Shown piece by piece: positions 36,688-63,876 of a stretch of DNA of 64,000 nucleotides. The notes under the pieces were generated by a model. The model searched no databases. It saw only the letters and a list, made by a program, of their open reading frames with translations, and was not told the origin of the DNA. A program made the translations under genes and the position numbers. Within the stretch, counting starts at the first letter, position 1. The number at the start of each line of letters is the position of its first letter. This DNA is from a virus, in the IMG/VR virus record IMGVR_UViG_3300042868_005134, positions 239,636 to 303,635 of that record, one strand, 5' to 3'.

Positions 36688-37329
36688 TTAGGCTTTAATT
36701 ACAGACTCTATCTTTGCTATTGACTCACCCATAAACATCCTGACCATGGTCAGTGTTTGATCGCCTTTGACGTAAAAGTAGCTGCCGCCCCAACTTGTGT
36801 TACGGGACAAACTGCGTTTAGCTGTTGGCGTCAGCTTTATCTTCTTGTTATTTTTACACCACTCTACAAAATTTGTATGATTTTGTTTAGTTTTACCCAG
36901 GAAAATTTTGTAATCAAAGTCTAGTTTTTTTACAATTACTGTATTGTTTGCTAATTCGGGATTAGCTTTGTTTGGTACACTGATGTATTTTACACGATCC
37001 GGATCAATTGATGCTAATTTTTCTAAGTTAACAGATACGTTTGTATAGACATTAATTAATGGGTGTTCTATTCGCAATTCGTAATCGGACAGCTTGAACA
37101 TAACATTGTGTAATGTTTTACAATACTCTAAATCCTTGGGTGTTTTGATCTTGAGCCAGACTGGGTATTGTTCGGGGTCCGCTAGTTCGCCAAATTTACT
37201 TGACACAAATGTCAAATCATTGCCTCTAAACCAATTGGCCACTGGACAAACAAGTACAATTTTGTACTTGTACTTGTTCATAAAGAGCTTGGTAGTATCT
37301 TTAATCTTGACTGATTTTGGCAGTTTCAC
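36688..37329 (-). CDS. Conserved phage protein (213 aa)
   Basis: A 213-residue, basic soluble protein (MKLPKSVKIKDTTKLFMNKY). The motif KIVLVCPVANWFRGNDLTFV and the C-terminal TSWGGSYFYVKGDQTLTMVR recall a protein conserved in T4-like aquatic phages. Basic charge suggests nucleic-acid binding, but no domain is recognised. It overlaps clpA by 29 nt. Confidence 0.65.
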   Translation of the reverse strand: MKLPKSVKIKDTTKLFMNKYKYKIVLVCPVANWFRGNDLTFVSSKFGELADPEQYPVWLKIKTPKDLEYCKTLHNVMFKLSDYELRIEHPLINVYTNVSVNLEKLASIDPDRVKYISVPNKANPELANNTVIVKKLDFDYKIFLGKTKQNHTNFVEWCKNNKKIKLTPTAKRSLSRNTSWGGSYFYVKGDQTLTMVRMFMGESIAKIESVIKA

Positions 37330-39565
37330 TTAGTGGAATCCTTGCTACCTTTGGCTTGGCAATCAACAACAAGTTATCGTTTTCAACAACAATACTCAAT
37401 GCCCCGCCGCCCTTTAGCTCTCCAAACAACATTAGTTTAGCAAGTGGCCGCTTGATTTCTTTATCGATTACTCGCTGTAATGGCCTTGCGCCCATCTTGG
37501 CATCAAAACCTTTTTCAATCAACCAATCAATTGCGTCATCACTAATCTTGATGCGAATAGCTTTTTCTTTGATTTGTCCTTTAAGCTCAACCATGAACTT
37601 ACCAACAATTTTAATCATTGTTTCTTTAGTCAGCTTGCCAAACGTAACAACACCATCCAACCGATTACGGAATTCTGGAGCAAAGAATTTCTTAAGATCT
37701 GTATCGCTGTAATCTTTATCTTGCTTACCAAAGCCAATGGCATTCTTCTCACTTGCTTGTGCGCCAGCATTTGTGGTAATAATAAGAATTAGATTACGAC
37801 AATCTGCTTGTTTTCCATTTGAACCTGTGATAAAACCATTGTCCATCATCTGTAACAAGATTGTTGACACATCTGGGTGACTTTTTTCAATTTCGTCTAA
37901 CAGTAATACACAGTTGGGACTTTCTTGAATTTTTGTAATCAGCAATCCAGCATTTTCTTCAAAGCCCACATACCCAGGTGGACTGCCAATCAACTTGGAA
38001 AGACTATGCTTTTCTTGATATTCACTCATGTCAAAGCGGACAAGTTTAGTACCCAAGTGCTTGGCCAGTGCCTTGGCTGTTTCAGTTTTACCTGTACCAG
38101 TTGGTCCCATGAACACAAAGCTACCCACCGGTTTGTTTTCACTCTTCAATCCCGCCCGGGCAACTAGAATCTTGTCTACAATTTCTGTAATAGCAGAATC
38201 TTGTCCGTACACTTCTTGTTTCAATTGACTTTCCAGGTTAGCAAGATTTCCAGCTTCCTGTTCTGCGATTTGCTCTTCAGGTATTTGAATCAGCTTTGCC
38301 ATTTCAAACTGTATGCTTGCTTCGTTGACAACTCGTTCATCGGCCAGCTTCAAATTAAATCTTGAGCAAGCTAAATCAATCAAGTCAATGGCCTTGTCGG
38401 GCAACTTCTTATCTGTTTGATATTTAACACTCAATTTGATTGAGGCCTGTAGTGCATCATCTTTAATTTTAACATTATGATGTTGCTCATAATATTTCTT
38501 AATACCCTTAAGGATTTGTAATGTTACTTCTGGTGTAGGCTCGTCGACAGTAATGCGTTGGAAACGGCGCATTAACGCACGATCCTTTTCAAAGTACTTG
38601 CGATATTCTTCCCATGTGGTGCTGGCAATAACTTTGATGTTGCCCTTACTCAACGCAGGTTTCATCATGTTGGCAAGATCATTTGATCCATTGCTGGCAC
38701 TGCCAGCACCACTAATCATGTGTGCCTCGTCGATAAACAACACTGTCTTACCTTTCTTGCTTAACCCTTTAAGCACAGCTTTAAATCGTTCTTCAAAGTC
38801 TCCACGATACTTACTACCTGCTAACATTGCGCTAATATCTAAGTTGTATACGCTGTAGTCTTTCAAGAAGTCAGGAACTGCTCCGTTTACAATGTTGTGA
38901 GCAAGACCTTCAGCAATGGCAGTCTTACCAACACCGGGATCACCCACAAGGATCACGTTGCTCTTACTGCGCCTTCCTAATGCTAGGGCAATATTTTCTA
39001 ATTCATCTATTCGACCAATAACAGGATCTACTTTGCCTTTTTTAACTTGTTCATTTAAATTTGTAGTAAATGCTTTTAGTGCTCGATCACTTTGTGTATC
39101 TTTAGGTTCGTTTTCTTCTTCCAACGGGGTTTCCACTTCATTATTAAGGTAATCTGCAAACTTGTCTTTGTCAATGTTTGCTTGCTGGATATAATAGTTA
39201 CTCCAACTGCGCTTCTCACTCATCATGGCAAGAAATACATCGGTAGGTTCGATACGTTGTCTACCGTTGAATAACACCTGTGTAAACGCACGATTAAGTA
39301 CACGTTCCACAGTTTGTGTTTTGCGAGGCTTGATGTCAGTGGTTACACCAATTATTTCGTCGCATTTGGTCTTGAGATAATGTTCCAGATTCTTTTTAAT
39401 ATAATCCGGATCGGCTCCGTAACCTGTTACACAGTTGGTAAAACTTTCTTCACAGAGCATGGCAAACAGCAAATGCTCAATGGTAAGATACTCGTGTTTT
39501 AATTTTTTGGCAACATCTATTGCTTTTTCAAACACTAGTTGTAATTCGGTGCTGGGTTCTACCAT
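37301..39565 (-). CDS. clpA: ClpA-like AAA+ unfoldase
   Basis: A 754-residue, two-ATPase Clp protein. The N-domain (EYLTIEHLLFAMLCEES) is followed by Walker A GDPGVGKTAIAEG (about 208-220) and LFIDEAH, then a second module with GPTGTGKTETAKA, LLLDEIEKSHPDV and EFRNRLD. The IGF tripeptide in KNAIGFGKQ stands where ClpA has the IGL loop that docks ClpP. No clpP is seen in the window, so it may recruit host ClpP to degrade chosen proteins. There is no coiled-coil M-domain of the ClpB disaggregase type. Start overlaps the deformylase gene by 38 nt. Confidence 0.92.
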   Translation of the reverse strand: MVEPSTELQLVFEKAIDVAKKLKHEYLTIEHLLFAMLCEESFTNCVTGYGADPDYIKKNLEHYLKTKCDEIIGVTTDIKPRKTQTVERVLNRAFTQVLFNGRQRIEPTDVFLAMMSEKRSWSNYYIQQANIDKDKFADYLNNEVETPLEEENEPKDTQSDRALKAFTTNLNEQVKKGKVDPVIGRIDELENIALALGRRSKSNVILVGDPGVGKTAIAEGLAHNIVNGAVPDFLKDYSVYNLDISAMLAGSKYRGDFEERFKAVLKGLSKKGKTVLFIDEAHMISGAGSASNGSNDLANMMKPALSKGNIKVIASTTWEEYRKYFEKDRALMRRFQRITVDEPTPEVTLQILKGIKKYYEQHHNVKIKDDALQASIKLSVKYQTDKKLPDKAIDLIDLACSRFNLKLADERVVNEASIQFEMAKLIQIPEEQIAEQEAGNLANLESQLKQEVYGQDSAITEIVDKILVARAGLKSENKPVGSFVFMGPTGTGKTETAKALAKHLGTKLVRFDMSEYQEKHSLSKLIGSPPGYVGFEENAGLLITKIQESPNCVLLLDEIEKSHPDVSTILLQMMDNGFITGSNGKQADCRNLILIITTNAGAQASEKNAIGFGKQDKDYSDTDLKKFFAPEFRNRLDGVVTFGKLTKETMIKIVGKFMVELKGQIKEKAIRIKISDDAIDWLIEKGFDAKMGARPLQRVIDKEIKRPLAKLMLFGELKGGGALSIVVENDNLLLIAKPKVARIPLSETAKISQD

Positions 39566-48647: not shown

Positions 48648-49148
48648 TTATCTCAAAAATTCTCGCCAGTCCAAATCGTATTTGACACTGTCGATTTTGT
48701 GTACGCCTATCAAAAATAGCGCATAACTGGCCACGCTACTTCCTCTACCCACACCCCATAATACATTTTTACCATGTAATGTATCTACTACATATTTAAG
48801 TACACGCAGAATATCTATCATGTTTCTTGATTGAAATTCTTGTAATTCTTCAATAAGGCGCGGGTAGTTTTGTTTAGGGCACAGATTTACTAGGAACCCT
48901 TCTATATCCATGTTTCGATATTCGCTGGGCATAAACCAATCAGTTTGGCACATTGCGTCAAATTGTGCTTGATCAACATCTAGTTGTTCAAACAATTTTA
49001 AGTTTAGTTCAGAATGTGTTTTCAGCTGTTGTGTACTGGCTGTTTTTTCTATCAGGATTTCTGAAAGGTAATCTACCTTATTAGAGTATATTAAATCAAA
49101 TATATCTTTTTCTTGATAGATTACGTTGCCTAGTTGGTCATATTGCAT
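48648..49148 (-). CDS. Short DNA polymerase III alpha (DnaE)-like fragment protein
   Basis: A 166-residue protein. The C-terminal half, GVGRGSSVASYALFLIGVHK then IDSVKYDLDWREFL, matches the DnaE palm region (GPGRGS...LLGITDVDPIKYNLLFERFL). It ends just before the point where DnaE has its catalytic PDFDxDF aspartates, so it cannot be a full polymerase. The N-terminus (FDLIYSNKVDYLSEILIE) is not clearly homologous. The family B gp43 does replication. A DNA-binding or regulatory role, or a remnant, are both possible. Confidence 0.6.
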   Translation of the reverse strand: MQYDQLGNVIYQEKDIFDLIYSNKVDYLSEILIEKTASTQQLKTHSELNLKLFEQLDVDQAQFDAMCQTDWFMPSEYRNMDIEGFLVNLCPKQNYPRLIEELQEFQSRNMIDILRVLKYVVDTLHGKNVLWGVGRGSSVASYALFLIGVHKIDSVKYDLDWREFLR

Positions 49149-55238: not shown

Positions 55239-57863
55239 TTAACCAAATCTAAAAATTCTAGGTCTGGGCCAGGCCATACCGGAGGATGGTCGTACACCTT
55301 GCGATAGTTTAGGCACTGTTTGCCCTTCTGTAGGACGTTCTTTTTTATAATATAAGTATAGATTAGGTGCTCCTTGAAGATCCCTAATATCAGTTGGGCC
55401 GCCAGTGGTTGCGCTTACCTGTCCTTGTTTTGCGACGCCTGTAATATAGGCCTTTGCTTGAACTTGATTCCAATGCGGGTTTTGTTCTAAAACACAAGCC
55501 AGCACCCCACACACATTAGGGCTTGCCATACTGGTTCCACTAATTTTACCCAGTAGGTATGAGCCATTTCTGCTATCGCCTATACCACTTAGATACGCAC
55601 TGATAATATTAGTACCTGGTGCCCAAATGTCCACACCAGGGCCACAATCACTATAATAACTCTTTTGGTCACTGCTGTTTACATCTATTGCTCCCACACA
55701 TATATTTGGGATAGCAGTATCGTTGGCAGTGGGGCTGGTGCCGCGCATATAGTAATAGGGATTAGCAACACTGGCTGGATATCTACTGGCCATTTCAAAT
55801 GTGTTGTCCCAATCTAAACCACCTGGTACATCATGTTTCCATAATCCGTTGCCAGCTGCCCCTACCATGATAACACCTTCTGCTATAGCATCTACTATGT
55901 CGGCATCACATCCTGGTACACGAGAAGGAATACGTTGCCCCGATATAAATCCCCAACCGTTCAATTGTTCTGTGGTAAATCCACCACCCACAGTTTTTCT
56001 AGCATTGGCACCCAACTGAAGATCAATTTGACTGGGTGTTGCTTCGTAAAAAACAAATTCGTTAACCATGTTTGGACTACCAACAGTGCCACCAGTTGAA
56101 GCTGTACCTTCAAGTCTTACTCTGTATGTTCTATTGGGCGAAGTACCTTCGACACCGTAATAAATTCTTTGTACACTATTGTCGGCACACGACCACATAA
56201 TCTTTGGAAGATTTGGACTTGCTGGACCAAGGCCAGCATATAAAGTTGAGCCACTGCCGAATGTAACATAATGATTAGTGCTAACATAGATAGTGCTATA
56301 TGTGTTACCTAAAAATGTAATACTGAACGGCAACACCAACGTCCAGTAGCCATCATCATTATTTCCGCTAGTTGGTGTAGTACTGCTGGCTAAAGAAGCT
56401 GCATCTAATAAGCTATTAGTTATTTCTGTAACAGTTGCCGCAGAACCAGTTGACGTAGTGTTTACCAACAAACTCATGGCAACGGCAATAGTGGGAGTTT
56501 CTGCGTTAGCTAGATCTAGTGTTGTATCAAATATAATGGTATATACGTCAGTTTCCGCTAAACTAAAATCTTCTCTAATATCAGTTTCTACTGCTATGTC
56601 AGTGAACGGACCTTGGGTGAAGGTATCAACTACACTGTTATCAGATTTTTTAATAGTAATGCTGCTTGTTAAACTAACTGTGCCACTAAAACATTCAGAA
56701 GCAACATTGTTTATTAAACTGATATCTGCAGGTCCTTGAACTGTAACAGAATAGCTGGAATCGGGCTCACTAAACGTAGTTAAGTAAGTTTGCTGTCCTT
56801 CTTGCGACCAACTAACAGGTTTAGTTAAAATGCTGCCTCCAGGGGGCGTATACGGGCCTGTAGTTGTAATTCTATTTCCAAAATTTTCAAATCCCAATAA
56901 CACAGCCAATCTTTCATTAGAGTTACAAACGCCGCTATATCCAGTATAGGTAGTAGCACCACTTGGCGTATATCTTGATCCCCTGTAGGTAACTGCTGTA
57001 ATATCAGTCATACTCCATTCGCTGGGGAAAATACTTTCTCCCCAACTGTTGTTACATATAGTTGGATTACGTCTTCCAGTTGCTGGATTTACGCTTTTAG
57101 CTTTGTGAAATTCTTTTATGTAACCGAATACGTAACTAAAGTCTCCGCTATCACCTGCATCATAATAAATGTTATAGATGTTGGAGTCTCTTGCCCATCC
57201 TTGAGTATTACCAGCAACTGTGCCGCTTACGTGTACACTATGACTGTGCGTGGCATTACTGTATGTTCCAGGAGCTGTTCCTCTCACAGCAAGATTGTGT
57301 TGAAACCAATTGTAGTTCAACATTCGTGAGCCGCCAGTACCGTTGGCGTTAACAGCATATTCTGGATGTGCGCTATCTGGATTACCAGCGTCTACAATAA
57401 CTACATCTACATTTTTTCCTGTTGATGTTATTTGTACTGTGGCTGTTTGGTTGGCAGTCCCGTCACTGCCCCAGCCTGATCTATTAGCGCCTTCTGTACA
57501 GCGTAACAGTGCCCAATTCAACATGTTACTAGATGTAGTTCCTGATTTATTCCAAAAACTACTAGTCTGTGTTGTGGTGGCAAATGTGCCAGGCTTCATG
57601 CCTAGATATCTAGAATGTATTGACACACTTTCAACTCTAAAATCTTGTTTTAGGTCTAATGCTTCCCATTCGGTTAGCATATAGTGTGTGCTTCTGCTAA
57701 ACGGTTTTTGATCTACGCAAGAAACTGCACGCTCAGGCGCTGCACTTCCTTCGAATCTACCATAGTCTGCCATCTCGGCATAAAATGAATCAAGATCATC
57801 GCTACTTTTCAAAGTAACAATATACTCTTTTGTTTCTGTATATTTTTTAATAGAGTCTGTCAT
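55239..57863 (-). CDS. Subtilisin-like serine protease, virion-associated (copy 1)
   Basis: An 874-residue S8-family protein. Residues 1-90 resemble an inhibitor-I9 prodomain (EYIVTLKSSDDLDSFYAEMA). The catalytic triad can be placed at Asp158 (VDVVIVDAG), His208 (SHSVHVSGTVAG) and Ser778 (SGTSMASPNVCG), with a long beta-rich insertion (about 310-650) carrying Ser/Thr-rich and NDDGYWTLVLPFSITFLG segments. The C-terminal RPSSGMAWPRPRIFRFG is shared with copy 2. It sits in the tail-fibre block, so it may process tail proteins or attack host-surface proteins. No signal peptide. Confidence 0.88.
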   Translation of the reverse strand: MTDSIKKYTETKEYIVTLKSSDDLDSFYAEMADYGRFEGSAAPERAVSCVDQKPFSRSTHYMLTEWEALDLKQDFRVESVSIHSRYLGMKPGTFATTTQTSSFWNKSGTTSSNMLNWALLRCTEGANRSGWGSDGTANQTATVQITSTGKNVDVVIVDAGNPDSAHPEYAVNANGTGGSRMLNYNWFQHNLAVRGTAPGTYSNATHSHSVHVSGTVAGNTQGWARDSNIYNIYYDAGDSGDFSYVFGYIKEFHKAKSVNPATGRRNPTICNNSWGESIFPSEWSMTDITAVTYRGSRYTPSGATTYTGYSGVCNSNERLAVLLGFENFGNRITTTGPYTPPGGSILTKPVSWSQEGQQTYLTTFSEPDSSYSVTVQGPADISLINNVASECFSGTVSLTSSITIKKSDNSVVDTFTQGPFTDIAVETDIREDFSLAETDVYTIIFDTTLDLANAETPTIAVAMSLLVNTTSTGSAATVTEITNSLLDAASLASSTTPTSGNNDDGYWTLVLPFSITFLGNTYSTIYVSTNHYVTFGSGSTLYAGLGPASPNLPKIMWSCADNSVQRIYYGVEGTSPNRTYRVRLEGTASTGGTVGSPNMVNEFVFYEATPSQIDLQLGANARKTVGGGFTTEQLNGWGFISGQRIPSRVPGCDADIVDAIAEGVIMVGAAGNGLWKHDVPGGLDWDNTFEMASRYPASVANPYYYMRGTSPTANDTAIPNICVGAIDVNSSDQKSYYSDCGPGVDIWAPGTNIISAYLSGIGDSRNGSYLLGKISGTSMASPNVCGVLACVLEQNPHWNQVQAKAYITGVAKQGQVSATTGGPTDIRDLQGAPNLYLYYKKERPTEGQTVPKLSQGVRPSSGMAWPRPRIFRFG

Positions 57864-57868
57864 GGCGT

Positions 57869-60163
57869 TTAAGATTTGTAAATTTTAATTCTCGGAAACA
57901 CCATGCCACTAGCAGGTCTGGGTTTACAATTAATTTTAGGAAATGTATTACCTGATGTAGCACGTTCCACCTTATGAAAAAGTATTCGATTGTTTCCGCC
58001 TTGTAAACTATTAGAATCTGTGAACCCGCCACCACTGTCTGCCATCTTTCCACTTTGAGCATAACCTGTAATATAATTTTTAGCATCTGCTTGGTTCATT
58101 CGAGGATATGTTTCTAATGCCACCGCTAGCACTCCAGCAACTTGCGCCGCGGCCATGCTAGTACCATTATACTTTTGATAATTGTCTCCACCCTCAACTA
58201 CAATTCCTGCAGTATTTCCGCCGCTTCCTCCGGTGCCATCGTATACACTACTGATAACATTTTTTCCGGCAGCATATAAATCTACTCGAGGTCCAGTATT
58301 ACTTGCTTGTGTTTTATTTTCGTTGCTGGTACTATCCAATGCTCCCACTATAATTATATCAGTACTGGCCGCGTTAGGACTAGAACCTCTATGATAGTAA
58401 ATGGCTTCTCCGTTGTCTAAATAATAATTATTGTAATCTAGACCAGACGGTGTATCTAATTTAAAACTGCCATTACCTGCCGAACCTACAAAAACTATAC
58501 CATCGTTTATACAGTCAACCACATCAGCATCCATGCTGGCATCTCTATAAGGTGCAGCATCGCCACCTTGCATAATACCATATTGTTCTAATTGCGCCGG
58601 TGAAAACTCTCCACGGAACGCAGCATTTTGATCCACGTGTACATCAATTTGATTAGGTGTTGCTTCGTAAAATGTCATTTCCCACAACATGGTAGGACTG
58701 CCTAATACTCCTCCATTTGCTCCATCGTGTCCTTCGAATCTGATTACGAATGTTCTGCTTCCACTGGTACCCTTGGTGCCGTACCATAGTCGTTGGCAGC
58801 TTCTATCTCCACCACTAATGATTATTTTTCTTGTAGTGGGCCTATTTGCACCTGGGTCAACTTTGTAGCAATCAGACGCTGGGTTGCCGCCAAAAGTAAC
58901 AAAACTATTAGAACTCACATGAACATTTTGACTACTGCCAGTTTGGCTTGGCCCATAGTTATTAGTACCACTATTACTAAAATATGTAATATCGAAAGGC
59001 AACGGCAATGCCCAATAGGCATCGTCATAGATATCCACACCATTCGCATCACTGCCAGTGGGCACACCTGCGTTGGTTAGTCCACTAGTTCCTTGCATAT
59101 TTTTAGTTATGCTGACAACACTAGCGGCAGTAGCGCTAGTGTTAGTTATTCTGTTGCCGCCATTGGATAAATTAGCCAGTGTTGATGCTCTGGCAGAGGC
59201 AGTACATACTCCGCTGTAACCTGTATCTAAAGGGGTATTTCCTAAACCGTCAGGTGTTACAAACGAACCCCTGTAATAAATTTTACTAATAATTGAATCA
59301 TTACCGCCGGTGAACGTATTACGCACAGTTGGACTAATGCCAAGGCCCCAGCTGTTGTTAACTATGGTTGGGTTACGTCTTCCAGTTGTTGTATTTACAC
59401 TTTTAGCATTATGGAATGCTCTTATATAATCAAATATATAATCTGAAGGCGTGTACAATCCTGGATCTAAATTTCCTTGATCGTGCCTAAAATTGTATAT
59501 GTCAGCATCTCTAGCCCAACCTTGTGTATCACCACCTATAATACCTGCAACGTGTGTTGCGTGATTGTTTGTTCCTGCGTATCCGTCACCGGGTACAGTT
59601 TCGTAATAGTTGTAGGTAGCATCAGGATTTGCACTCCATACACTTAAATTATGATTGGCAAACCAATCATACTGTTGTGCTCGGCCGACAAACTCGCCGT
59701 GACTGGGATCGATAATCTGATCCACTACAACAACATCTACGTTTTTTCCTGTACCTGATGTCACAGCGGTAGCAGTTTCGTCGCCTTGTGATCCTTCTGA
59801 ACCCCAGCCAACAATATTGTTGGCAATAGTGGATCTGTACAATCCCCAATTTCGATTGCCTATAGCGATAGTTTCACTTCTACTCCAAGTGGCAGTTTGA
59901 CTTGAATGTAGTACAGCCTTGGCGCCCATTAACTTCGACTTTAAGGTCACTGCTTCAACTCTTGGATCATTGCGTAGTTGATCAGCTTCGTCTACTGACA
60001 AACGATAATGTGTATTTCTACTAATGGGTCGTCGATTCACACACTCCGCTATTCTTGAAGGGACATTGTTGGTAGTCCCTTCAGTTTCCATCTCAGAATA
60101 AAATTGTTCTAGGTCATCTTTATTTCTGAGCGTTACAATAAACTCTCTGAAAATTGCTGGCAT
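57869..60163 (-). CDS. Subtilisin-like serine protease, virion-associated (copy 2)
   Basis: A 764-residue S8 protein paralogous to copy 1, with the same I9-like start (REFIVTLRNKDDLEQFYSEM), triad Asp148 (VDVVVVDQI), His201 (NNHATHVAGIIGG) and Ser669 (NGTSMAAAQVAGVLA), and end (RPASGMVFPRIKIYKS). The central insertion is shorter than in copy 1. Tandem duplication followed by divergence is likely. Both retain catalytic residues. Substrate unknown; neighbours are tail fibres. Confidence 0.88.
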   Translation of the reverse strand: MPAIFREFIVTLRNKDDLEQFYSEMETEGTTNNVPSRIAECVNRRPISRNTHYRLSVDEADQLRNDPRVEAVTLKSKLMGAKAVLHSSQTATWSRSETIAIGNRNWGLYRSTIANNIVGWGSEGSQGDETATAVTSGTGKNVDVVVVDQIIDPSHGEFVGRAQQYDWFANHNLSVWSANPDATYNYYETVPGDGYAGTNNHATHVAGIIGGDTQGWARDADIYNFRHDQGNLDPGLYTPSDYIFDYIRAFHNAKSVNTTTGRRNPTIVNNSWGLGISPTVRNTFTGGNDSIISKIYYRGSFVTPDGLGNTPLDTGYSGVCTASARASTLANLSNGGNRITNTSATAASVVSITKNMQGTSGLTNAGVPTGSDANGVDIYDDAYWALPLPFDITYFSNSGTNNYGPSQTGSSQNVHVSSNSFVTFGGNPASDCYKVDPGANRPTTRKIIISGGDRSCQRLWYGTKGTSGSRTFVIRFEGHDGANGGVLGSPTMLWEMTFYEATPNQIDVHVDQNAAFRGEFSPAQLEQYGIMQGGDAAPYRDASMDADVVDCINDGIVFVGSAGNGSFKLDTPSGLDYNNYYLDNGEAIYYHRGSSPNAASTDIIIVGALDSTSNENKTQASNTGPRVDLYAAGKNVISSVYDGTGGSGGNTAGIVVEGGDNYQKYNGTSMAAAQVAGVLAVALETYPRMNQADAKNYITGYAQSGKMADSGGGFTDSNSLQGGNNRILFHKVERATSGNTFPKINCKPRPASGMVFPRIKIYKS

Positions 60164-60164
60164 A

Positions 60165-63100
60165 TCATGCTTCTAGTTGTAGTACAGTTAATGTAACTGT
60201 GATAGTTCTAGTAGTTCCACTCTTATTTGTTACAGCAATTGGAATACTAGCTAGTGGAGTTCCTTCGTTGTTAAAGCCTATTGTTCCAGGGCTAATTAAC
60301 ACTGTTTGGGCTGCACTAGTAGTAATAACTTCGGCAATAACTCCACTACCTGGTGTTGGATCAACACCTTCAGCTCTACTAGAATCAGCACTTCTACTGG
60401 CTGTATCGGTATAAATTCTCACCCATGCTGGTTGATCTACTAATATTTTAAGTAGAGCATAAGATTTATGTCCTGTGACGGCAACGTTGCCAGTGGCTGC
60501 ATCAGCTAGAGAAGCAGTTGTTCCAATTACATCGGCGCGAGTGGCCATGCTGCCACCTCCGCCACTGCTGGCAATGGTAATAGTGTTAGCGTCTGTGCGT
60601 GTTACTGTGACATTGGTACCTGCAGCTATGGTTAAGTTGTCTGTACTGGTATCTGAACCTGTGAGTCTTATGTTTGCACCACCTGATACTGTTTCAGCGC
60701 TGATGCCATAAGTCACGCCACCGCCTGATACTGTGCCTGGTTCCCAATTGCTGCGCACACTGTTCCATACCAATGCCTGACCGTTAGACGGAGCGGCCGT
60801 AGAAGTGTCAACATCACTCAGTGCGTTGATACTAGTGGCTGAATATGCTGCTGGCACATCGCTGGCATTGGCTAATGCGTTCCATGTGGTGCTATGTGCA
60901 AAATACATTTTGCCATCTGCGTGACTGTGCGCAATAGCACCGTGATAGGTAGTAGCATTAGGGAAGGCTGTTTGATCAGCATAGTAAAATGGTATCACTG
61001 ATCCTACACCTGGTGCTGTGATTGCTCCAGTATCACTCACTGTGACCAAACTGGTCTGACTTAATTTTCCAGTTGTTCCATCAAATCTCACTAGAGCATT
61101 GTCTGTGGCACTGGCTGGACCCACCATGTCACCGGCCGATGCTGTGCCTGGCAACCATTTGCTACCAGCAGAATTCCAAACAAGTGTCTGACCATTTGTG
61201 GGCGCACTGGTAGTTGTGTCAACGTCGCTTAGAGCATCGATACTGGTCGAAGCGTAGGCTGCAGGTATACTAGGAGTTCCGCTAAGGTCGCTGTATGCTC
61301 CTGTAGTTGCCACTGTTGACAATGTAGGAGTTCCGCTAAGATCAGCGTATGCGCCACTAGTAGCCACAGTTGACACTGTAGTCCACTCTGTATTATAATC
61401 GGTGCCATCTATTTTCGATAATACTTGACCAACTGTTCCGCCTGTAGGTACACCTTGGCCGTTAGTACCTGCCGGTCCTTGGAACACTCCAAGATCAACC
61501 CATGCAGAACCACTATAGCTCCATAAGTGAGTTGGGCTTGGACTTAATACAACATACGCATCACCTAACGTCATTCCTGTTAACGCTAGTAGTGCAGTAT
61601 TATCTGCAACTGTTCCTTTAATTACAATACTGCCAATTGGTGCGCCGTTCACTGTAGAACCGCCAGGCAAGTTAATTGTTGTTCCCACCGCAGTAATTAA
61701 TCCGCCGCCACTACCACCACTACTACCAATTCTTAAACCATTACTAGTTCCATCAATTGCGACTGTATTAAAAAATCGAGCTGTACGATCTGAATTTAAT
61801 CGTAATACTTCTTGCATTGTACCAGATGAACTAGCTACTTGTAATTTTAATACACCGGGGATTATTCCTGTAGAAATGGTTCCTGTAGCTTCCGCTTTAA
61901 TTTGCGCAATTCTTACATCGAAATTATATGCGGTAACAGTGCCGGCTCCTGCTTCGGAAGTAATATCAGGGCCAGGTGAAGTAACAGTAAAGCTAGTAGA
62001 ACTAGGTACAGTTAATGTTGTAATGTTAATTAAGTTAACACTTGAGTTAGTTGTGCATACAATAGTAACAGCCCAACTAGTTGGTCCTAGACTACTAGTC
62101 GTCATGCCATGTGACCCGCTAGTGGTAACAGTTAGTATACCAGCTGTTCTGGAAATATTAGTGATAGTTGATGTTGGAGCATATCCGTCAAATCCTGACC
62201 ATCTGATAGAATATATATTATCTCCAGTTAACATAGGAGTTGGTGTTCCATCAACTGAACTAATTCTTTGTAATACTAATCCTGGAAGAGTAGATGCACT
62301 TGGACTATACGATCTAAGAGTTAAAACTGGTGTGCCGCCTGCGACTGGAGCACCGTTATCTGTAACAATTAACGAACTTCTACCTTGCCCAGGCGCACCA
62401 CCAATACTAATACTTGATCCTGACAATCTAATGCTTGGCCCAACTAAATCGAGTTGCGAAGAAGCTGATACAGTAATACCGTTAGTATTTGGGGTAACAC
62501 TACCTTTACCCACACCTAACACTTTATAATTGACACGACCTTCTACATATAGTGAGCTACCAGCAGCATCGTATGTTAAGAATCCGTTAGAACCCTTAAC
62601 CGTAGTTCCTGGAATTTCGTAAAATGCTAAATCTAGCCCAAGACCTGATTGAACACGGCCGCTGGTGGAATTTATAGTAATAGTCCCGGCATCAGTTCTT
62701 TCAACAGAAATATCAGTGCCACTAGCCAACTTAACATCGTCTGTGCTAGAATTACTTCCTGTTAAGCGTAAGTTGGCGCCGCCAGTTGCTGTTTCTGAAC
62801 TTATAGCATAAGTTGTATCAACAACATCATTTGTAATTAAGATAGTACTAGCGTCTGTTCGAGATACGGTAATACCAGTTCCGCTGTCAATTTTAACATC
62901 GTCTGTCACCATGTCACTGCCAGTTAAACGTAAGTTGGCGCCGCCAGTTGCTGTTTCTGCACCTACACTATATGTTGTGCCTCCACCACCTGCATCAGCT
63001 GCCGGCGCCCATGCTGAACCGTTCCATTTTAGAACTTGTCCTGAGCTTGGAGTGTCGCTTGTTACATCCGCTAGATCTGCTAGGTTAACGGGAATAGTTC

Positions 63101-63260
63101 CCACAGCATAGCTTAAACTAGTCCACGGAGTAGTGCCGTTACCAATTTTAAATCTACCGGTATTTGTTTCAAATCCTGGTTCGCCTGCTGCTAAGACAAC
63201 AGTACCTGATGCTGTCCACTCTAAAGCAGTTCCTTTTCTCAATATAATTTGTTGGGGCAT
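60165..63260 (-). CDS. Tail fibre protein with internal repeats (1031 aa)
   Basis: A 1031-residue fibre. The N-terminus (QQIILRKGTALEWTASGTVV, LAAGEPGFETNTGRFKIGNG, TTPWTSLSY) is a common phage fibre module. Four units of the type ETATGGANLRLTGSD...TDDVKI...RTDA follow at about 95-185 and again near residue 880. Several DALSDVDT-x-GQ-LVWNS and LSGTPTLSTVATTGAYSDLS repeats occupy about 650-880. Likely a receptor-binding or decoration fibre. A late-type box lies about 25 nt upstream. Confidence 0.85.
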   Translation of the reverse strand: MPQQIILRKGTALEWTASGTVVLAAGEPGFETNTGRFKIGNGTTPWTSLSYAVGTIPVNLADLADVTSDTPSSGQVLKWNGSAWAPAADAGGGGTTYSVGAETATGGANLRLTGSDMVTDDVKIDSGTGITVSRTDASTILITNDVVDTTYAISSETATGGANLRLTGSNSSTDDVKLASGTDISVERTDAGTITINSTSGRVQSGLGLDLAFYEIPGTTVKGSNGFLTYDAAGSSLYVEGRVNYKVLGVGKGSVTPNTNGITVSASSQLDLVGPSIRLSGSSISIGGAPGQGRSSLIVTDNGAPVAGGTPVLTLRSYSPSASTLPGLVLQRISSVDGTPTPMLTGDNIYSIRWSGFDGYAPTSTITNISRTAGILTVTTSGSHGMTTSSLGPTSWAVTIVCTTNSSVNLINITTLTVPSSTSFTVTSPGPDITSEAGAGTVTAYNFDVRIAQIKAEATGTISTGIIPGVLKLQVASSSGTMQEVLRLNSDRTARFFNTVAIDGTSNGLRIGSSGGSGGGLITAVGTTINLPGGSTVNGAPIGSIVIKGTVADNTALLALTGMTLGDAYVVLSPSPTHLWSYSGSAWVDLGVFQGPAGTNGQGVPTGGTVGQVLSKIDGTDYNTEWTTVSTVATSGAYADLSGTPTLSTVATTGAYSDLSGTPSIPAAYASTSIDALSDVDTTTSAPTNGQTLVWNSAGSKWLPGTASAGDMVGPASATDNALVRFDGTTGKLSQTSLVTVSDTGAITAPGVGSVIPFYYADQTAFPNATTYHGAIAHSHADGKMYFAHSTTWNALANASDVPAAYSATSINALSDVDTSTAAPSNGQALVWNSVRSNWEPGTVSGGGVTYGISAETVSGGANIRLTGSDTSTDNLTIAAGTNVTVTRTDANTITIASSGGGGSMATRADVIGTTASLADAATGNVAVTGHKSYALLKILVDQPAWVRIYTDTASRSADSSRAEGVDPTPGSGVIAEVITTSAAQTVLISPGTIGFNNEGTPLASIPIAVTNKSGTTRTITVTLTVLQLEA
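62761..62959 (-). repeat. Near-identical 37-nt repeat in the fibre gene
   Basis: A 37-nt segment at 62761-62797 recurs at 62923-62959 with one difference (162 nt apart, 54 codons). It encodes the ETATGGANLRLTG unit. The two are much more alike in DNA than the other copies, indicating recent duplication or gene conversion. Confidence 0.8.
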
Positions 63261-63300: not shown

Positions 63301-63876
63301 TTATGGCGTGCCGCCATCGATAACCACAGTGAAAGTGGAACCTGGACCACCACCATCCAATACTACATCAAATACTGTGGAACTTGGGCCGCCACCATCA
63401 ATTATGCTGGTTGAGCTGTCTGTAATGCCGACGCTTACCGTGACAGCTGGAGTAATGCTGTTTAAGGTTACTGTGAATGTTTCCGCGCCTTCTGTGGTAA
63501 AATCATTGGCTACAGCAATCACCAGCGAGGCAGTATTAGAGTTAACAGTAAATGACCCTGTTAAAATAGCCAATCCTAAATCTGCTGCAGTAATCCCTGT
63601 TCCTGTAATGGTATATGGCACACTGGTACCATTATTTACATTAGTTGTAGTCAGTGTAATAGTTACACTCGCGCCTTCGCTCACTGTGGCGCTACTTCTA
63701 GTTAGAGCATATGTAGGGGTAGTAGGAGCAGTGCCTCCAGATAATAAATTGCCGCCAGCTGTTACACCGTCGCCTACATAGATTAACTTTGTATCGGTAA
63801 CATAGATAAGCTCACCTTCTTCTGGTGTAAAACTTAATCTATCTGTTTCAAGACCTCGTCTTAATAATAATGACAT
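63301..63876 (-). CDS. Structural protein with Calx-beta-like domain (191 aa)
   Basis: A 191-residue protein. The start (LLRRGLETDRLSFTPEEGEL, IYVTDTKLIYVGDG) is a fibre-type module. Residues 60-150 resemble a Calx-beta repeat (SSATVSEGASVTITLTTTNV, EGAETFTVTL), a calcium-binding adhesion fold. The C-terminus repeats IDGGGPSSTVFDVVLDGGGP. Likely a small tail adhesin next to the large fibre. Confidence 0.75.
   Translation of the reverse strand: MSLLLRRGLETDRLSFTPEEGELIYVTDTKLIYVGDGVTAGGNLLSGGTAPTTPTYALTRSSATVSEGASVTITLTTTNVNNGTSVPYTITGTGITAADLGLAILTGSFTVNSNTASLVIAVANDFTTEGAETFTVTLNSITPAVTVSVGITDSSTSIIDGGGPSSTVFDVVLDGGGPGSTFTVVIDGGTP

Follow-up and report, generated by a model that had tools for sequence, protein, structure and literature searches.

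Why would a virus place two large, diverged subtilisin-like proteases next to each other among its tail-fibre genes, and what would they cut? The question is raised by a window of 64,000 nucleotides, part of an IMG/VR virus record of 383,411 bases (IMGVR_UViG_3300042868_005134, positions 239,636 to 303,635). The two open reading frames, A (55239..57863, the tail-linked downstream copy) and B (57869..60163, the upstream copy), lie on its minus strand, as do the other cluster genes and the protein segments located below, and encode 874 and 764 residues, the sizes given in the original prediction. In the direction of transcription the order is T1, T2, B, A, P1269 and P666; only 1 base separates T2 from B and 5 bases separate B from A, hence the genes look co-transcribed. 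The cluster is headed by T1 (63301..63876, 191 residues), with an Mtd_N domain in Pfam, and continues with T2 (60165..63260), a tail-fibre protein of 1031 residues with an N-terminal Mtd_N domain (6.9e-12) and matches to phrog_9627, phrog_15343 and phrog_677. Next after A comes P1269 (51385..55194), a structural protein with a He_PIG (Ig-like) Pfam match whose position is conserved by synteny in many loci, and then the tail-fibre-like P666 (49388..51388; phrog_30742, phrog_693), with a hypervariable distal part. A protein of 166 residues adjoining the cluster (48648-49148), which holds the same place in many relatives, matches phrog_11127 over the start of DNA polymerase III alpha only, and a large ATP-dependent protease (37301-39565; phrog_4871, 2.9e-251) is the third protease gene of the window.

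The record also carries T4-related head genes, namely a Gp23 capsid gene (1.3e-82) and, adjoining it and away from A and B, an S77 prohead protease gene (7.4e-27). Since A and B match S8 and not S77 in Pfam and the genome has its own S77 protease beside Gp23, head maturation needs neither of them and was discarded as their role. Family searches of the virus record gave no match to Phage_sheath_1 and no Photo_RC gene, and no near-identical phage was found among phage records by a near-identity search. The bacterial-genome matches with good coverage were contigs of metagenome-assembled genomes with mixed labels, and are probably stray phage DNA.

Both proteins belong to the S8 family. The Peptidase_S8 matches (1.4e-21 for A and 3.2e-24 for B, with a Pfam cut-off of 21.8 bits) are not due to chance, and both proteins match phrog_9158 (4.5e-97 and 6.3e-85, respectively), although A and B are only 39-41% identical to each other. 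The catalytic residues follow the S8 order. In A, Asp158 (57390-57392) and His208 (57240-57242) lie in a first catalytic segment, residues 97-308 (56940..57575), and the oxyanion Asn672 (55848-55850) and Ser778 (55530-55532) in a second one, residues 645-845 (55329..55931), both delimited by alignment and model. In B the corresponding codons are those of Asp148 (59720-59722), His201 (59561-59563), Asn564 (58472-58474) and Ser669 (58157-58159). An AlphaFold (AF2) model of A, built from 49 sequences of the window and its relatives, has a mean pLDDT of 86 and a complete proteinase-K-type catalytic fold, which superposes on keratinase 5wsl_A with a Z of 36.1 and 2.4 Å over 274 of 282 residues. The Asp-His-Ser triad announced for both proteins is thus present in both; the subtilisin fold is seen in the model for A, and for B it follows from the sequence.

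For the I9-like prodomain proposed for the two proteins, the A model gives an I9-like order of fold elements and the sequences a faint family signature. It spans residues 1-92 in A (57588..57863) and 1-84 in B (59912..60163), as placed by fold order and pLDDT in A and by the aligned prodomains in B. Residues 11-82 of the A model run strand-helix-strand-strand-helix-strand, as in I9, and Ser56, Asp74 and Arg76 (A numbering) are invariant. Among Pfam families, Inhibitor_I9 scored best with the aligned prodomains, but weakly (matched by 10 of 47 members, with a best E of 2.4e-4); the A protein of the window had no Pfam I9 match and the prodomain had no sequence match in the PDB. The linker that follows an I9-like prodomain is the usual place of cleavage in the subtilase fold, and residues 88-94 of A, modelled with low confidence, are the expected self-cleavage region. 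Neither protein has a hydrophobic N-terminal stretch, in agreement with the predicted lack of a signal peptide.

The S8 domain is split between its Asp/His half and its Ser half by a large insert, residues 309-640 in A (55944..56939) and 291-538 in B (58550..59293). The insert of A is beta-rich in the AF2 model and consists of two parts, X (309-490), mostly missing from B, and Y (491-640), which is common to B, whose insert is Y-type, and to two other phage proteins, one of them annotated as a tail fibre, a sharing that was counted in favour of virion enzymes. About 136 residues of A are missing in B. The insert matched no Pfam family and no PDB sequence family, and the modules of A gave no match at 1e-3 among the non-S8 open reading frames of the fetched loci. 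Two B-type proteases (L021:7532-10330 and L032:5081-7840) carry extra tail-protein-like modules of ~70-85 residues near the His region and immediately ahead of the Ser motif. Both proteins and most relatives share the predicted common C-terminal end, RPxxGxxxPRxxI, which in A forms a tail of low pLDDT (residues 846-874, 55242..55328). The S8 proteins of loci L023, L024, L025 and L026 end instead in TYYYICQFHxGMVGQIxIS, a sequence resembling a cupredoxin-type copper site.

Is the active site in use? In an alignment of 88 relatives every untruncated protein but one keeps the Asp, His, oxyanion Asn and Ser, and the invariance of these residues reaches relatives at ~35% identity. The dN/dS values of the catalytic segments, against the three nearest relatives, are mostly 0.013-0.11, which points to strong selection on a working enzyme, although self-cleavage alone could explain them. 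PCSK9 is a subtilase that cuts only its own prodomain, and A and B might likewise do no more cutting than that and otherwise serve as a fibre-tip adhesin on a protease scaffold. PCSK9 was indeed among the structural matches to the A model, as would be expected merely from the common S8 fold. The exception in the alignment, a B-type copy (L031:1442-3718), has had its catalytic Ser segment replaced by an unrelated tail-protein-like module while its paired A and the rest of the locus are kept; it may be a genuinely inactive enzyme or the product of misassembly. In S-CAM1 a 'tail fiber protein' (L102:7389-9644) is S8-like with a Glu aligned at the catalytic Asp position, possibly a degenerate copy. 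Both cases favour a structural role. Against it stands the invariance of the four residues, a weak argument given that self-cleavage alone could maintain it. We judge this role improbable.

The gene that precedes the proteases brings in an element absent from the original prediction. T2 ends in a conserved domain of ~127 residues, T2C (60168..60548), a candidate docking domain singled out by its linkage to S8 and by AF2, whose model is a beta-sandwich (pLDDT 89) with middling matches to PDB folds (best Z 7.3). In 90 of the 91 loci with room upstream, the gene directly before the first S8 gene ends in T2C, and an S8 open reading frame comes next after T2C in 78 of 79 loci with room, a sample drawn from the best 80 of at least 575 T2C loci that holds the T2C matches closest to the window, was searched with a query built on S8-adjacent copies and leans to close relatives. 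The window itself has this arrangement, a T2C-ending gene before S8 inside a fibre cluster. Of 48 annotated phage records that contain T2C, by comparison of coordinates, S8 is adjacent in ~26, a degenerate S8-like tail fibre comes next in 7 (S-CAM1), 2 are unclear (ACG-2014i), and in 13 other genes follow or no S8 was detected. In S-BM3, S-SCSM1, P-SS2 and S-CBS2 a non-S8 gene is next to the T2C gene, so that T2C cannot be a docking domain reserved for proteases.

The same strict adjacency would be expected if A and B were maturases, cleaving virion proteins during assembly (T2, its C-terminal domain, P1269 or P666) and perhaps staying bound, because the pairing of an enzyme gene with a fibre gene fits an enzyme and its fibre substrate equally well, and this counts against a host-surface target. 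In endosialidases, C-terminal fibre chaperone domains are removed by cleavage, and the constancy of T2C on divergent fibre bodies is similar. A survey of jumbo phages further argued that well-conserved structural peptidases mainly process virions (PMC7824862). However, T2C fibres occur in phages with no adjacent S8, so T2C fibres in general do not need it; the large inserted beta modules and the LamG additions of a relative would be odd for a maturase, and there would have to be two cleavage tasks to account for two co-conserved copies. Fibre maturation is accordingly judged unlikely, though it deserves to be taken seriously.

Presence in the particle, the second element of the original prediction, is supported by homology, annotation and gene context. 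A, B and gp144 of S-SCSM1 all match PHROG 9158 (gp144 at 3.9e-116, with its triad intact), and the S-SCSM1 record marks gp144, as well as the T2C-bearing gp141, '(virion protein)'; 46 such marks were counted. This is close to the 45 proteins that mass spectrometry of CsCl-purified virions detected in the report on this phage (PMC9602691), and the marks include the non-structural proteins named there, NMNAT and a D-Ala-D-Ala carboxypeptidase; the mark is read here as probably denoting mass-spectrometry detection. The additional Laminin_G domains of gp144 are as expected for a surface-facing protein. The T2C protein gp087 of P-SS2 is a virion protein by mass spectrometry (PMC2784084). Given that S8 almost always directly follows a T2C fibre gene and that A and B are kin of a cyanophage-particle protease, the tail of this virus is probably equipped with cutting enzymes; for its own particle the claim stands by homology. 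It is conceivable that A and B are late proteases acting inside the infected cell or during lysis, located in the tail cluster by chance, and the virus is known from its IMG/VR record alone; but the tail-cluster position of the S8 genes is conserved across ~90 loci and gp144 bears its virion mark, which makes such a role very improbable.

Two diverged copies had been suggested to serve different hosts or different steps, and a survey of phages for the pair was proposed. Of the 163 loci that carry S8 genes, 34 were found to have them in tandem, on about 23 different contigs, with B followed by A or by a B-type copy, or A followed by a P-SSM2-type copy. In the tree the B-type clade (98/97) lies outside the A-type (100/99), and separate clades together with recurrent pairs indicate that there was no local duplication, so that a recent tandem duplication is ruled out; on these sequences the A/B pair is a recurrent arrangement and an old split, which may go back to an early duplication or to capture from another phage. 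Against the relatives L012 and L013 the catalytic parts of both proteases are ~88-99% and T2C 82-91% identical, whereas identity drops to 37-64% in the T2 body and to 28% in distal P666. T2 and P666 keep conserved N-terminal parts, with bodies or distal parts highly divergent between close relatives in the manner of host-range modules. This turnover beside conserved proteases marks the fibre body and P666 as the parts that are exchanged in a host-range-like way, and the proteases behave as constant machinery. Alternation of host range between the copies is therefore disfavoured, while different substrates or steps are retained as a proposal.

The reading we favour, at close to an even chance, is that the virion carries A and B as active subtilases of its tail or baseplate fibres, in association with T2C, and that they cut a host-surface protein at adsorption. 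Fibre maturation ranks second, a structural or self-cleaving role third and a non-virion role last. The proteins would fold with the help of their I9-like prodomain, from which they would be cut at about residue 88-96, and would assemble into the particle without being secreted. They would join the T2 fibre, probably at T2C, either directly or via the conserved protease C-tail, and the beta-sandwich modules that interrupt their catalytic domain would probably hold the substrate. At adsorption the enzymes would cut a receptor, an S-layer or a similar host-surface protein, which would help to make binding irreversible or to reach the envelope, and the two copies would probably differ in substrate or step, not in host. 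The fold, the intact active site under selection and the genetic linkage to T2C are what the analysis shows; docking on T2C, the host-surface substrate and the division of labour are the steps that we infer. A broader scheme, itself rather doubtful, is a modular entry device in which a variable fibre and a T2C adaptor carry a swappable enzymatic tip, with one protease in most phages, the subtilase hetero-pair here and other proteins elsewhere, and which would cut surface proteins as tailspike depolymerases cut sugars.

Whereas the tail enzymes that cleave host glycans have been studied in depth, a virion protease against host surface proteins has not, and no paper on one, nor anything direct on virion subtilases, was found in the literature searched. 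The T2C-protease linkage offers a concrete, testable partner in the cultured cyanophages S-CREM1, Sf-FR1 and S-H38, and the tandem pair raises the question of why one particle keeps two diverged proteases. S8 peptidases were noted in cyanophage genomes by Sullivan et al. 2010 (PMC3037559). The family is known, as single uncharacterised genes in tail clusters; no description of the split-domain large form, the recurrent hetero-pair or the T2C linkage was found in the searchable literature. The cyanophage peptidases of PHROG 9158 (S-SCSM1 gp144, Sf-FR1 SfFR1_192, S-CREM1 SCREM1_165, S-RSM4 SRSM4_039 and P-SSM2 PSSM2_297) share with A and B the family, the triad and the tail-cluster place, in most cases with a T2C-type gene upstream. 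They differ in that one copy was found per record, at no more than 47% identity over aligned residues, and in being shorter and lacking most of the insert (553-611 residues) or carrying other C-terminal domains (gp144, 1411 residues). The proteinase K-like subtilases (keratinase 5wsl, aqualysin I 4dzt and proteinase K) have the catalytic fold of A and resemble it in the arrangement of the I9-like prodomain, whereas A and B have no signal peptide, an insert of 248-332 residues between the halves and a phage tail context. The S77 prohead protease of T4 (gp21) is also a phage serine protease tied to morphogenesis, but it belongs to another family and another gene cluster. In T4-type phages with gp37 and gp38, a separate fibre-tip protein is encoded directly after the fibre gene, the arrangement seen here; in the present case, however, the protein that follows is an enzyme, and its docking on T2C is a proposal.
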